Both the position numbers and the translations under genes were made by a program. A stretch of DNA of 38,628 nt from an uncultured Veillonellaceae bacterium. GTDB taxonomy: Bacteria; Bacillota; Negativicutes; Selenomonadales; Selenomonadaceae. Location of the stretch: positions 1-38,628 of the forward strand of contig ONCF01000111.1 of NCBI GenBank assembly GCA_900316275.1, in the 5' to 3' direction. Positions within the stretch are counted from its first letter, which is position 1. Every line of letters starts with the position of its first letter. The notes beneath the pieces are model-generated. The model did not search any database, was not told the DNA's origin, and saw only the letters and a program-made list of their open reading frames with translations. Below are positions 10,263 to 34,148 of the stretch, in pieces.

Positions 10263-10306
10263 GATGAATCATTCCTTTCCCTTATAGACATTTTTGTATA
10301 CACAAA

Positions 10307-10342
10307 GAGCCATTTACAGAAACACTTTCCTGTAAATGGCTC
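10307..10342 (-). promoter_or_regulatory. 13-bp perfect hairpin in the leader of the DUF485-symporter-nitrilase operon
   Basis: GAGCCATTTACAG pairs with CTGTAAATGGCTC over a 10-nt loop. On the minus strand it is followed only by TTTGTGTATAC, a poor U tract, so it looks more like a leader stabiliser or weak attenuator than a full terminator. It lies between the predicted transcript start and the DUF485 ATG. It could also trim read-through from the LysR gene. Confidence 0.6.
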
Positions 10343-10346
10343 CATT

Positions 10347-10372
10347 GCCATAGGTGTTATTCACCTTATGGC
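10347..10372. promoter_or_regulatory. Dyad overlapping the transcription start, possible operator
   Basis: GCCATA-GGTG and CACCTTATGGC form an inverted repeat with a 5-nt spacer and a single-base bulge. It spans the predicted +1 (about 10369) of the promoter at 10376-10404, a typical place for a repressor operator or a leader hairpin. Confidence 0.45.
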
Positions 10373-10375
10373 TGT

Positions 10376-10404
10376 ATTGTATAATATTTTCTGTCCGTGG
10401 TCAA
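10376..10404 (-). promoter_or_regulatory. Promoter of the DUF485-symporter-nitrilase operon
   Basis: TTGACC (10399-10404) and TACAAT (10376-10381) are exactly 17 nt apart. It starts only 13 nt beyond the end of the LysR gene, so the operon can be transcribed separately from its presumed regulator. Confidence 0.8.
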
Positions 10405-10416
10405 ATATCAATAGTT

Positions 10417-28838: not shown

Positions 28839-30503
28839 TCAGATTTCCATGATAATCGGCAAAATCATCGGGCGGCGGCGCGTTTTGTCGAAGAGGTAGC
28901 GGCCGAGGGCGTCGCGGACGTTGGCCTTGATGGCGGCCCACTCCTTGACGTTCTCGTCCTCGCAACGGTCGAGCGCCTGCTGCACGCGGGCGCGCGCCTC
29001 GTCCATAAGCGCCTCGGACTCGCGCACGTAGACGAAGCCACGCGACACGATGTCCGGGCCGGCCACGACGCGGTTCGTCTGGCGGTTCATCGTCACGACG
29101 ACAATGAGGATACCGTCCTGTGAGAGCTGGCGGCGGTCACGCAGTACGATGTTGCCCACATCGCCGACGCCGAGGCCGTCAACCATGACCATACCGGCCT
29201 GCACCTTGCCTGCCACGGTGCCTTTGTCCTTCGTGAACTCGAACACGAGGCCGTTCTCGCCGATAAAGACGTTCTCCTTCGGCATGCCGAGCTCACGCGC
29301 GAGCTGCGCGTGCTTCACGAGGTGATGATACTCGCCGTGCACGGGAATGAAGAATTTTGGGCGCACAAGGTTGTGCATGAGCTTGAGCTCCTCACGGCTC
29401 GCATGGCCCGAGACGTGAATGCCCTCGCCACGGCCGTAGATGACGTCAGCGCCGAGCTTCAGCAGATTGTCGATGGTCTTCACGACCATTTTCTCGTTGC
29501 CCGGAATGGGGTTGGCCGAAATGATGACCGTGTCGCCCGGCACAATGCCGACCTTGCGGTGGTCGGACATGGCCATGCGCGTGAGCGCCGACATCGGCTC
29601 GCCCTGGCTGCCCGTCGTGATGACGACGACCTGCTCCATGCGGTAGTTGTTGATTTCGTCGATGTCGATGAGCGTGCCCTCCGGCGCGTGGATATAGCCG
29701 AGCTCGAGCGAGATGTTCACGACGTTGACCATGCTGCGGCCCAGCACGGCCACGCGGCGCTTGTAGCGTACAGCCGTGTCGATGACCTGCTGGATGCGGT
29801 GCACGTTCGAGGAGAACGTCGCGACGATAATGCGGCCGCGTGCCTTGTGGAACGCGCGGTCAAACGCCGCGCCCACCGTGCTCTCCGACGGCGTATGCCC
29901 CTCGCGCTCCGCGTTCGTGGAGTCGGCCATCATCACGAGCACGCCCTTGTTGCCGAGGTCGGAGAAACGGCGGAAATCCGTCATCTTGCCATCAATCGGC
30001 GTATAGTCGAGCTTGAAGTCACCCGTGTGCACGATCATGCCCACTGGCGTCTTGATAGAGAGGCCCACAGCATCGGGGATGGAGTGGTTCACGCGGATAA
30101 AGCCGACGCTGAAGCAGCCCACATTGATGATATCGCCCTGCATGACGGAGTGCAGATTGCTCGAGTCCACGCCGTTCTCCTGCAGACGCCCCTCGAGGAT
30201 GCCCAGCGTCAGACGCGTGCCATAGACCGGTACGTTAATCTGCTTCAGCACATACGGCAGCGCGCCGATATGATCCTCATGGCCGTGCGTGAGCACGATG
30301 GCCTTGATTTTATCCTTATTCTCGAGCAGATATGTGATGTCTGGGATAACGAGGTCGACGCCGAGCATCTCCTCATCTGGGAACATCAAGCCCGCATCGA
30401 TGACGAGAATTTCGTCGTCGCAGCGGATGACCGTCATATTTTTACCGATTTCCCCCAGGCCGCCCAGAGGAATGATTTGCAATTTCTGTGCTGTTTTAGC
30501 CAA
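28839..30503 (-). CDS. rnj: Ribonuclease J
   Basis: Metallo-beta-lactamase/beta-CASP nuclease with 5'-to-3' exonuclease and endonuclease activity, central to mRNA decay and rRNA processing in Firmicutes. Zinc ligands appear in THGHEDHIGALP and in VHTGDFKLD. The beta-CASP region has the ADSTNAEREGHTPSE and GIHVSGHASREE blocks, then FIPVHGEYHHL. At 554 residues it matches the B. subtilis RNase J1 length. The start is TTG at 30501-30503 with AGGTGAGGTG 8 nt upstream; an earlier GTG would fall inside that site. It is monocistronic with an unusually long leader. Confidence 0.97.
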   Translation of the reverse strand: MAKTAQKLQIIPLGGLGEIGKNMTVIRCDDEILVIDAGLMFPDEEMLGVDLVIPDITYLLENKDKIKAIVLTHGHEDHIGALPYVLKQINVPVYGTRLTLGILEGRLQENGVDSSNLHSVMQGDIINVGCFSVGFIRVNHSIPDAVGLSIKTPVGMIVHTGDFKLDYTPIDGKMTDFRRFSDLGNKGVLVMMADSTNAEREGHTPSESTVGAAFDRAFHKARGRIIVATFSSNVHRIQQVIDTAVRYKRRVAVLGRSMVNVVNISLELGYIHAPEGTLIDIDEINNYRMEQVVVITTGSQGEPMSALTRMAMSDHRKVGIVPGDTVIISANPIPGNEKMVVKTIDNLLKLGADVIYGRGEGIHVSGHASREELKLMHNLVRPKFFIPVHGEYHHLVKHAQLARELGMPKENVFIGENGLVFEFTKDKGTVAGKVQAGMVMVDGLGVGDVGNIVLRDRRQLSQDGILIVVVTMNRQTNRVVAGPDIVSRGFVYVRESEALMDEARARVQQALDRCEDENVKEWAAIKANVRDALGRYLFDKTRRRPMILPIIMEI

Positions 30504-30634
30504 AAAAATACACCTCACCTTTCATGATTATATATATTTATCGCTTGCTTACGGTTTGATAAATGATAATAGCAGCAATGCGCTCGCCTCTGCCCGTCAC
30601 AACGCTCCGGCAAAAGTGGCTCTTTAGTTAGCTA

Positions 30635-30671
30635 CACAAAAACAAGGCTGCTTTCCGTTCTCTTGACAGCC
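30635..30671 (-). promoter_or_regulatory. Attenuator-like hairpin in the rnj leader
   Basis: On the minus strand GGCTGT (30666-30671) pairs with GCAGCC (30646-30651), with TTGTTTTTGTG directly after. The stem is only 6 bp including a wobble, so termination would be partial or conditional. It lies about 50 nt downstream of the predicted start and 130 nt before rnj. Confidence 0.45.
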
Positions 30672-30727
30672 TGCACATGTGCCTGACAGTGCCCTATGTA
30701 GTTTTATCCGCTCAAATCATTTCCTTT

Positions 30728-30756
30728 ATTTTAGCATTCTGTGTACACATTGTAAA
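30728..30756 (-). promoter_or_regulatory. Distal rnj promoter
   Basis: TTTACA (30751-30756) and TAAAAT (30728-30733) are exactly 17 nt apart, with TGC before the -10 box. This is one of the best promoter matches in the window. It gives a leader of about 220 nt. Confidence 0.72.
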
Positions 30757-30785
30757 GGAAGGACGGCCAATTTCCGCGCGCGGGC

Positions 30786-30859
30786 ATAAAAAAACGCTGC
30801 CTGCATCGGGTGCCGGCACTGTAAAACGTGTCAGCAGTCTCTGCACCAGGCAGCGTTTT
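30786..30859 (-). terminator. Terminator with long structured loop after the 30871-31161 gene
   Basis: A perfect 13-bp stem, AAAACGCTGCCTG/CAGGCAGCGTTTT (30791-30803 and 30847-30859), encloses a 43-nt loop with an inner GGTGC/GCACC pairing. T7 follows on the minus strand. Confidence 0.82.
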
Positions 30860-30870
30860 GCGCTACGACT

Positions 30871-31161
30871 TTACTCGGCGGCCTCCATATCCAGCATGGC
30901 GACGTCGCAATCGGGCTCGGAGAGCATCCAGTTGTCGATGACCTCCCCGGCCGCCTCGATGAGCGCGCCATCCCCGGCCGTATACTCACCGCTCGGGCGA
31001 TGCCACTCCGAATACACCTTGTGCATGGTCTGCGGCCGTCCATGCTCCAAACGGTAGGCCACATCACCATGAATGCCCGCCGGCCGGATTTCCGCCACCA
31101 CGCGGTAACGGTCACTGTTGGGGTCGTGGAATAAAGCTCTGCCCACATCAATCTTCATCAT
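30871..31161 (-). CDS. Hypothetical protein, 96 residues
   Basis: Small acidic soluble protein without a recognised domain. It starts MMKIDVGRALFHDPNSDRY, includes VVAEIRPAGIHGDVAYRLEH and YSEWHRPSGEYTAGDGALIE and ends in an acidic LDMEAAE. Two ATG codons in a row form the start, behind a weak AAAAGAG site. It is followed by a terminator and preceded by about 250 nt of non-coding sequence with a rod-like inverted repeat. Function unknown. Confidence 0.7.
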   Translation of the reverse strand: MMKIDVGRALFHDPNSDRYRVVAEIRPAGIHGDVAYRLEHGRPQTMHKVYSEWHRPSGEYTAGDGALIEAAGEVIDNWMLSEPDCDVAMLDMEAAE

Positions 31162-31226
31162 ACTTCACTCTTTTCTATCACAATGCCGTTTCCCTGTTCC
31201 CTGGCACCATCTATGCATTCCCTTTT

Positions 31227-31316
31227 TAGGTGCAAAAACTCTGGTCTGTGTCCTTGCCCAAAGAAGTGGCACCAATCCCACTAACTGGCAACCCGACAAC
31301 CATCTGATTGCACCTA
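31227..31316. repeat. 90-nt rod-like inverted repeat (RNA element or small transposon-derived element)
   Basis: The outer arms TAGGTGCAA (31227-31235) and TTGCACCTA (31308-31316) are a perfect 9-bp pair. Inside lie nested pairs GGT/ACC, TGTC/GACA, TTGCC/GGCAA (31254-31258 and 31287-31291) and AGTGG/CCACT (31265-31269 and 31278-31282), all in register. No U tract follows on either strand. The ends are TA on both sides. It may be a structured leader of the gene at 30871-31161 or a TA-flanked miniature element. The 92 nt between it and the methyltransferase gene are AT-rich with no feature beyond weak promoter-like sequence. Confidence 0.6.
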
Positions 31317-31408
31317 CGCTGTAAATATTTCGTTATAAATGTAAATTTTCCTGCAAGAAAACGATTAATTTTTGTTTAAAGCATAAAAATTATACTTGGA
31401 ACGCATAG

Positions 31409-32206
31409 TTATACCTTGATGAAACCGTAGTGCACTTTGCTATACTTACCACCTGTGACCTGTGTGAAACCCAGCCGCGCGAACTCGGTGCTGCGCGCGG
31501 TCTCCTTCATGACGACGCGCTCGCGGGCAACGCGGCAGGCCTCGGCGACAGTCTCCTCTGTCAGGGCCCGCCGGTCGGCCACCGTGCGCAACGGGTCGAG
31601 TGCCTTGCTCGCATAGAGCGGATGGCGGAACATCGGGTCGAAGTACACCACATCGTAGCTGTCCGCAGGTTGCGCGCGCAGATAGGTCAGGGCATCGGCA
31701 CAGACGGGTGTAACGCGCCGCATGGCCGCGAGCACATGCGGACTGTCGGCCGTGAAATGCGCGAGCCCCCAGCCGACGACAGCCGCGATGAGCGGCTGCG
31801 ACTCGAGCCCCGTGACTGTGCCCTGCTCCCCCACGAGATAGGCCGCCGTGATGGCGTCTGCGCCGAAGCCGAGCGTGCAGTCAAGCACGCGCATGCCTGG
31901 GTGCAGCTGCATAGCTTCGCCGAGGCGGTCGCCCTGCCCGTGGCGGATATTTTTGATGCGCAGATGGGCCATATTCGGATGAAAGAACAACTCGCCCGCC
32001 GGTGTCTCCAGCATGAGCAGGCCGTTTTTCGCCACCAGTACGTAATGCACGCCATAACGTGCGCGCACCTCCGCCAGTGAGAGCGTACGTCGCTCGGCAT
32101 AGGGGATGCCCAGCCGTGCCGCCGCCGTCTGCGCCAGGGCCAGCGTCTCCTCGTCCCATTTGCGCGAGGTCGTGACTACGGCGTCCAAAGCATTTTGTTG
32201 TTCCAT
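31409..32206 (-). CDS. Class I SAM-dependent methyltransferase, RsmJ-like
   Basis: A probable rRNA methyltransferase. The SAM-binding motif I is RVLDCTLGFGADAITAAYLVG. The acidic residue after motif II is in VTGLESQP, and motif IV is YDVVYFDPMFRHPLYASKALDPLR, the pattern of RsmJ (16S rRNA guanine-N2 methyltransferase). The N-terminal extension of about 100 residues, beginning VVTTSRKWDEETLALAQTAA, is typical of the Firmicutes members, whose target is not proven. The start ATG at 32204-32206 follows the mutL stop by one base. The ribosome site is weak, so expression probably depends on mutL translation. Last gene of mutS-mutL-methyltransferase. Confidence 0.86.
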   Translation of the reverse strand: MEQQNALDAVVTTSRKWDEETLALAQTAAARLGIPYAERRTLSLAEVRARYGVHYVLVAKNGLLMLETPAGELFFHPNMAHLRIKNIRHGQGDRLGEAMQLHPGMRVLDCTLGFGADAITAAYLVGEQGTVTGLESQPLIAAVVGWGLAHFTADSPHVLAAMRRVTPVCADALTYLRAQPADSYDVVYFDPMFRHPLYASKALDPLRTVADRRALTEETVAEACRVARERVVMKETARSTEFARLGFTQVTGGKYSKVHYGFIKV

Positions 32207-32207
32207 C

Positions 32208-34148
32208 TTAAAACCCAAATCCCGTCCTTTTAAACATCTTCGCGAGGTCGTCGCTCGAGAATTTTAAAATCGTCGGGCGGCCGTGCGGGCAGGTGAAGGG
32301 GAACGGAGTCTGCGCGAGCTGCTCGAGGATAATCTGCATCTGCTGCCGGCTGAGCTCCTCACCCGCCTTGATGGCCGCGCGGCAGGCCGTCGTCGCGAGG
32401 CAGGCCTGGCGGATCTCCTGCGGCGTCGTGGCATGCTGCTCCATGAGGTTCGTGATGATTTCCCGTACGGTGTCCTCCGCCTCGCTCACCGGGATATCCG
32501 CCGGCACCTCGCGCAGACGGAACTCGTTGTCACCGCACGGCTCCAGACTGAAGCCCAGCTGCTGGAACAGTTCCTGATGCGCCGCCACGAGCGCGGCCTC
32601 GCGCGCATCAAAGGACAAAATCTGATGCACGAGCAATTGCTGCGCCGGTATCTCCGCCGCCTCGGCCGAGAAGCGGTCGAACAAAATGCGCTCGTGCGCC
32701 GCGTGCTGGTCGATAATGTAGAGCCCCTTGGCATCCTGTGCGATGATGTACGTGAGGTCGACCTGCCCGATAGGCACGATATTGCCCTCCGGGGCCATAG
32801 CCTCATTGGTGGCAGTGCCTGTGGCCACTGATGCACCATCGTTGGCTGCCTCAGCCGCAGTCTCGGCCACGGCACGTCCGTCAGCCTGTGTTGAGGCTGC
32901 AATCGTGGCATACTGCACCTGCGGCTGCAGCTGGGCCCGCGCCTCCGCCATGGACATAGCCGGCTGCTGACCACCCAGAGCCGCTGGCTGATGCACGGCC
33001 TCGTAAATAGTCCGTGGCTGCCACTGACCACGGGGCTGCTGCGCCTGCGGTTGGGCGACGGAAGTACCGGGACGGAACTGCAACGGCTCCTGCGTATAGG
33101 CCGGCTGCTCGACGCGTGGTTTCTCCACGACGGCCGCCACCTGCGTGAGCGTGCGGTCCACGGCGGGGCGCAGCGCATCGTGCACGGCCTTGTAAACGGC
33201 CTTGAACACGCTGCTCTCATCCTCGAATTTCAGCTCGCTTTTCTGCGGATGCACATTGACGTCGATGGTGCGTTGCGGTACCTGGATGTTCAGGAAGGCA
33301 AACGGATAACCACTCTTGGGGATAAGCGCCCGGTAGGCGTTGTCGATGGCCTTGGCGATGGCGCGGTTCTGGATGAGGCGGCCGTTGACGATGAACGTCT
33401 GCCAGCCACGGCTCGCCTTGAGCATAGAGGGCTTCGTAATATAGCCGTCGACGCTGATATCCTCGCCCACGAACTCCAGGCCCAGCAGGCTGTCCGCCAC
33501 ATTCACGCCATAGATGGCGCGGATGGTATCGACAAGGTTGCCCTTGCCCGGCGTGGCCACAGCCGTCTTGTTGTTGCTGATGAGGCGGAACGCCATCTCA
33601 GGATGTGAGAGCGCGAGTTTCACGATAAAGTCGTTGATATGCGCCGTCTCCGTGTGGTTCGTCTTGAGGAATTTCTTGCGTGCGGGCGTGTTGAAAAACA
33701 GGTCCTCGACCTGTATCGTCGTACCGAGGCTGCAACCTGCCTCGCGGATATCCGTGTCCTTGCCGCCCGTAATGCTGACGCGCGTGCCGAGATCACTGCC
33801 CGCCTCACGCGTCAGCATGGTAAAGCGCGAAACCGAGGCAATGGTCGGCAGCGCCTCGCCGCGGAAACCGAGCGTCGCGACCGTATTGAGGTCACTCACC
33901 TCGCGGATTTTGCTCGTGGCATGGCGTTGGATAGCCATTTCCGCGTCCTCGCAGCTCATGCCCTTGCCGTTGTCCGTCACGCGGATAAAGCTCGTGCCAC
34001 CCGCCATAATCTCGACCTCGACGCGCGTCGCACCGGCGTCGATGGCGTTCTCCACAAGCTCCTTGACGACGGAGGCTGGCCGCTCCACAACCTCACCGGC
34101 CGCGATTTTGTTAATGGTGCTGTCGTCCAACAGATGGATAATGCTCAT
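32208..34148 (-). CDS. mutL: DNA mismatch repair protein MutL
   Basis: Couples MutS mismatch recognition to strand nicking. The N-terminal GHKL ATPase has ELVENAIDAGA, VTDNGKGM, ATSKI and TLGFRGEALPTIASV. A 110-residue Gln/Ala-rich linker follows. The C-terminal endonuclease domain has DQHAAHE (480-486), ACR (588-590), CPHGRP (620-625) and FKRTGFGF at the end. The usual motif is DQHA(X)2E(X)4E; here the last Glu is Asp491. The other metal-site residues are present, so nicking activity is likely. Its ATG overlaps the mutS stop by 4 nt. 646 residues, normal. Confidence 0.96.
   Translation of the reverse strand: MSIIHLLDDSTINKIAAGEVVERPASVVKELVENAIDAGATRVEVEIMAGGTSFIRVTDNGKGMSCEDAEMAIQRHATSKIREVSDLNTVATLGFRGEALPTIASVSRFTMLTREAGSDLGTRVSITGGKDTDIREAGCSLGTTIQVEDLFFNTPARKKFLKTNHTETAHINDFIVKLALSHPEMAFRLISNNKTAVATPGKGNLVDTIRAIYGVNVADSLLGLEFVGEDISVDGYITKPSMLKASRGWQTFIVNGRLIQNRAIAKAIDNAYRALIPKSGYPFAFLNIQVPQRTIDVNVHPQKSELKFEDESSVFKAVYKAVHDALRPAVDRTLTQVAAVVEKPRVEQPAYTQEPLQFRPGTSVAQPQAQQPRGQWQPRTIYEAVHQPAALGGQQPAMSMAEARAQLQPQVQYATIAASTQADGRAVAETAAEAANDGASVATGTATNEAMAPEGNIVPIGQVDLTYIIAQDAKGLYIIDQHAAHERILFDRFSAEAAEIPAQQLLVHQILSFDAREAALVAAHQELFQQLGFSLEPCGDNEFRLREVPADIPVSEAEDTVREIITNLMEQHATTPQEIRQACLATTACRAAIKAGEELSRQQMQIILEQLAQTPFPFTCPHGRPTILKFSSDDLAKMFKRTGFGF

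Follow-up and report, generated by a model that had tools for sequence, protein, structure and literature searches.

A single-copy, TA-ended hairpin in the spacer ahead of a 96-residue gene in an uncultured Veillonellaceae bacterium

Is the 90-nt imperfect inverted repeat at positions 31227 to 31316 a structured leader RNA, a miniature mobile element, or neither of these? The repeat, which we call the rod, lies in a window of 38,628 nucleotides (the whole stretch of DNA that was analysed), within a 247-nt spacer (31162–31408) that has the gene of a SAM-dependent methyltransferase on its upstream side (31409–32218; Pfam SAM_MT) and a gene of 96 residues on the other (30871–31161), both on the minus strand. 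The 96-residue gene has coding-like codon usage. Beyond its end lies a 69-nt inverted repeat (30791–30859, minus strand) and then a T run; found from a repeat listing and from reading the sequence, this is probably its terminator. The terminator scan, whose loop limit is 8, did not list this site. The neighbours include mutL and a ribonuclease J gene, and the gene order is common to one relative from the same genus, G001. Another, G003, has a different gene upstream, with that of the methyltransferase about 3.3 kb off.

The original prediction described a rod with these coordinates, TA at each end, a perfect 9-bp closing pair and nested inner helices, and all of these are present in the sequence and its fold. 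On the minus strand, the rod has 27 pairs and is closed by a helix in which TAGGTGCAA pairs with TTGCACCTA over a perfect 9 bp, leaving a repeat of 7 bp without the TA; its fold energy is −34.1 kcal/mol on the minus strand and −29.6 kcal/mol on the plus strand. The original prediction missed two further helices of the minus strand, both of them predicted from the fold of the spacer. The larger is an 11-bp outer pairing with one G-U pair, whose 5′ arm (31398–31408) begins directly past the stop codon of the methyltransferase gene and whose 3′ arm lies at 31211–31221, so that it encloses the rod, with predicted pair probabilities of 0.99–1.0. The other is a second small hairpin of 8 bp (31180–31210) that carries the purine-rich AGGGAACAGGGAAAC in its loop. 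The 18 nt ahead of the start codon of the 96-residue gene are unpaired in the predicted minimum-energy fold of the spacer, and masking of the start is therefore not predicted. Like intrinsic terminators, the rod is an intergenic stem, but it differs from them in that no T run follows either of its ends, on either strand, as had been stated from the outset; 0 terminator sites are listed at 30500–31500 (loop limit 8), and we rejected this candidate.

Compared with shuffled sequences, the rod has z-scores of −2.9 on the minus strand and −3.7 on the plus strand, with 0 of 200 shuffles as good on each, values to be read in light of the fact that 31227–31316 was picked because of its repeat. The best 90-nt fold in its own spacer (−33.5 kcal/mol) can be set against a shuffle mean of −21.9 kcal/mol (sd 2.8), which 0 of 200 shuffles equalled, and a repeat estimate for the rod in its own spacer gave a z-score of −3.96 with 0 of 100 shuffles as good. 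When the 247-nt spacer is shuffled 2000 times, an inverted repeat with 9 perfect base pairs and a span of 60–120 nt turns up in 96 cases, of which 5 also match the rod's energy on either strand. The fold of the whole spacer (−65.7 kcal/mol, compared with −54.3 and an sd of 4.3) was equalled by 6 of 500 shuffles. Both the energy of the rod and the fold of the spacer thus beat shuffles of the same spacer, and the structure is above chance for its own spacer.

The genome background was taken from a sample of 474,777 bases, in which 124 spacers of 120–400 nt were scored in 90-nt windows. By structure z-score, the rod's spacer ranks 42nd of the 124, and 24 of the 41 more extreme spacers among the other 123 are without a T-tail by a crude test. 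The rank of 42 is noisy, since it comes from a crude gene caller and 20 shuffles per strand, which gave the rod a z-score of −2.9; the better-sampled values (about −4.2 with 200 shuffles, −3.96 with 100) would place it at about 21st to 23rd. A 9-bp repeat with a span of 60–130 nt is found in 9 of the 124 spacers, the rod's own counted. Given these numbers of more extreme and of repeat-bearing spacers, the rod is no outlier in its genome at either rank. The survey also brought up two other structured spacers. The most structured of the 124 (z −9.3) is at 10263–10416 of the window; its minus strand folds into 34 pairs, with a 17-bp hairpin around GAGCCATTTACAG/CTGTAAATGGCTC, it has no Rfam match at the gathering threshold, and it is possibly just a strong terminator. 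The other, a near-perfect long hairpin of CT/GA repeats (TTGCTTTCTCTCTCTTTCTC ... GAGAAAGAGAGAGAAAGCAA), is at L072:13198–13438 on contig C29 of the same genome, in a spacer between genes that the crude caller gives as divergent.

One of the two explanations in the original prediction was a miniature mobile element, and the copy number contradicts it, since BLAST, a structure model and a pattern of the arms each give one genome copy. BLASTN against the genome found the rod itself alone at E up to 10, and a short-word blastn search of the 475-kb genome sample returned, beyond the rod itself, matches of 11–20 nt only. A covariance model likewise gave a single copy in the rod's own genome at E up to 10, and the pattern TAGGTGCAA-N50..80-TTGCACCTA occurs at its own site only, in one of four genomes. 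Across genomes, the structure model, which was built from the rod alone as two identical rows and is without covariation, hit only the rod's own genome, both among 60 genomes under strict filters and among four at E up to 10. That BLAST searches of this kind are able to see dispersed families is clear from a control, a dispersed palindrome with 23 matches in the same genome. The palindrome is near-perfect and about 162 bp long, with ends GGAAACACTGATTAAT / ATTTAATCAGCGTTTCC and a copy at L077:3286–3450 (contig C34), and its fold energy is about −89 kcal/mol for a 195-nt stretch. Besides those 23 matches, of which 22 lie elsewhere than the copy just named, BLAST gives 21 in G001, 4 in G009 and 3 in G005, and the remaining 17 of the 21 genomes searched have none; several copies are at contig ends, and the palindrome is probably a MITE-like repeat.

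A narrower version of the mobile-element explanation would see in the rod the single remnant of a miniature inverted-repeat element that an IS630/Tc1-type transposase had left at a TA. The rod is, like MITEs, short and hairpin-forming with TA at both ends; it differs from them in its single copy, set against the 23 matches of the control, and in a repeat that is just 7 bp long without the TA. The comparison with an empty site cuts both ways. Of the relatives, G001 alone was seen to share the gene order, and its 208-nt spacer has strongly diverged from that of the TA-ended rod: the A+T-rich upstream part still aligns, at a score that 0 of 300 shuffles reach, and the downstream part gives a borderline result (reached by 26 of 300), but for the rod there is no alignment (218 of 300 shuffles do as well). 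When a cut of 90 nt is imposed, the best cut against the G001 spacer starts 1 nt from the rod under all four scoring schemes, which hints at an insertion, and the score with the rod removed is reached by 0 of 500 downstream-flank and 3 of 500 upstream-flank shuffles; however, when the length of the cut is left free, each of the four best cuts misses at least one edge of the rod, and neither of the 35-nt stretches that border the rod shows significant similarity to G001 (35–81 of 400 shuffles reach the score). Searches of phage and plasmid records at E up to 10 gave 4 and 1 records, respectively, with short weak matches that each cover at most 20% of the query, and an exact 21-base piece of the rod had 0 matches in viral contigs. 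We consider the mobile-element explanation to be unsupported, and an insertion relic to be unlikely.

The other explanation was a structured leader RNA of the 96-residue gene, possibly sensing a ligand or a protein, and it fares differently in its parts: there is weak support for position and shape and none for sensing, no sign of a sensed ligand having been found. Conservation upstream of the same gene had been proposed as a check, and the sequence of the rod is absent from the leaders of both G001 and G003. Nothing in the genus relatives G001–G003 matches the structure model at E up to 10. In a DNA search of 100 relatives, the rod's own genome included, 42 had at least one match at E up to 1; no listed match other than the window's own spans more than 41 of the 141 query nucleotides. 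Five of the best matches near the left arm (L003, L004, L005, L008 and L010) are each inside a stop-free frame of 510–1455 nt and thus probably in coding DNA, and they look like chance matches.

The leader of the G003 homologue (L040) nevertheless holds a rod of its own, with a sequence unrelated to that of 31227–31316. It is 105 nt long, reaches from 127 to 22 nt before the start codon, and is closed by the perfect 9-bp pairing of CAGCAGGAT and ATCCTGCTG, inside which another perfect 9-bp helix is nested; its energy of −34.1 kcal/mol compares with a shuffle mean of −19.3 (sd 3.2), and 0 of 300 shuffles are as good. The scan in 90-nt windows scores this leader at only z −2.25 (rank 54 of 126), its window being shorter than the 105-nt rod. 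No such rod is seen in the G001 leader (z −1.5 to −1.6, with 5–7 of 100 shuffles as good), which has no 9-bp repeat of that span and just a short hairpin of about −11 kcal/mol. Rods of similar size and energy are thus present in two of three leaders, the window's own included. Shuffled leaders yield such repeats at 19–45 per 1000 for each leader (19 per 1000 for that of G003), and together with the 9 of 124 genome spacers this puts the chance frequency of such rods in spacers at about 2–7%; by arithmetic from those rates, the chance that one of two tested homologues has such a repeat is a few to about 14%. At this frequency, the rod in G003 is a hint, and no demonstration, of a fast-changing structured leader conserved in shape only.

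How far, then, does the evidence go towards a cis-regulatory leader RNA, that is, an attenuator or a protein- or ligand-binding leader of the 96-residue gene, with an architecture that is kept while the sequence changes fast? The position ahead of the gene and the stable fold agree with it, the single G-U pair of the enclosing 11-bp helix fits an RNA of the minus strand, and the G003 rod agrees with it in closing helix and energy. Set against this are the G001 leader, which is without such a rod, the lack of any sequence common to the homologous leaders, and the occurrence of repeats of such span in 9 of 124 spacers, as well as the lack of a terminator-like site in the scan and of a pairing that masks the start in the minimum-energy fold. 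Rfam has nothing in the spacer, either at the gathering threshold (searched over the window) or at E up to 5 (searched over the spacer), consistent with the original prediction, which had recognised no riboswitch class. An abstract-level survey of the literature found nothing on this rod element. Compared with 5′ leader hairpins known to stabilise or attenuate mRNAs, the rod shares the same-strand position before a gene, a stable stem and a similar-size rod at one of two homologues; it differs in that its sequence is not common to the homologues, in that no terminator or start-masking alternative was seen, and in that transcription is here inferred. We regard a cis-regulatory leader as a tentative and rather doubtful reading. 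More specifically, it may be imagined that a rod leader of about 90–105 nt, with a perfect 9-bp closing helix and ending 22–65 nt before the start codon, undergoes complete turnover of sequence between species while the mRNA is under the control of a protein that reads only its shape, such as a double-strand nuclease or the product of the gene itself; this we hold to be improbable.

The protein itself gives little help in this respect. Among 189 genomes of its family, the 96-residue gene is found in three, own included, all in the genus (of which four genomes were searched), and 100 wider relatives give the same three genomes; the proteins are 71–76% identical across the three, and a search of genome_contigs returned two loci, with identities equal to those of the two genus relatives. 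The protein has no match in Pfam, NCBIfam or PHROGs and none in viral contigs, and nothing convincing among PDB sequences (best E 0.77). Its structure model, a confident one with a mean pLDDT of 91.4, consists of four strands, a helix and a strand; Foldseek gave no match at E 0.001 or better (best 0.16), and VIA-align gave middling matches only (best Z 6.0, rmsd 3.1, 84 aligned). No sign of nucleic acid binding came from these searches of sequence and structure.

Two further readings of the same DNA can be weighed. A frame on the minus strand at 31226–31303, which runs from an ATG through 24 further codons to a TAA whose last base is one past the rod, could be a short leader-peptide gene; 7 nt upstream of its ATG is an AGGTG that resembles a Shine-Dalgarno motif, with a duplex energy of −6.4 kcal/mol with a 16S-tail sequence. 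This motif is inside the closing helix, where pairing with the frame's own end would mask it. Frames as short as this often arise by chance, the codon usage is not coding-like (−0.25 per codon, compared with 0.52 for the 96-residue gene, and 1236 of 2000 letter shuffles score as high), and nothing recognisably alike was found by eye in the leader frames of G001 and G003, all of which makes a leader peptide very unlikely. The rod and its outer helix together measure about 200 nt and are rod-like with a closing helix, as 6S RNA is, yet the spacer has no Rfam match at E up to 5, and 6S RNA has just one match in the genome at E up to 0.001, which is elsewhere, on contig C109 (E 1.1e-7; RF00013 at 44.0 bits, just under the family cut-off of 46.4). 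On these grounds 6S RNA was rejected, and we give hardly any credence to it or to another known large structured RNA.

We lean, if only just, towards a species-specific hairpin in the spacer between the methyltransferase and 96-residue genes, which would be mostly passive, as a stem in the leader of an mRNA. The analysis shows directly that the stem exists, that it has one copy and that the genus relatives lack its sequence; its transcription and its passive role we infer. Transcription would start at a promoter within the A+T-rich 31317–31408, or would continue into the spacer as read-through from the methyltransferase gene; the stem would then belong to the 5′ leader of the mRNA of the 96-residue gene, where it may act mostly passively, for example by slowing the decay of the RNA or by setting a processing site, and no ligand, dedicated protein partner or transposition would be involved. 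The fold, which is real on both strands, its presence in one copy, the rank of 42nd among 124 spacers, the 9 spacers with such a repeat, the lack of any alignment or structure-model match of the rod in the relatives, the unpaired 18 nt ahead of the start codon and the lack of an Rfam match are in line with a passive stem. Against it, the rod beats shuffles of its own spacer, and the rod of the same energy in G003 favours a role common to both leaders. Taken together, it is the copy number, the relatives and the genome's background of structured spacers that argue for an ordinary stem. The value of this finding is mainly negative, as TA ends on a neat inverted repeat readily suggest a mobile element or a sensor RNA. 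If the leader were indeed conserved in shape only, it would be a regulatory RNA invisible to sequence-based searches.
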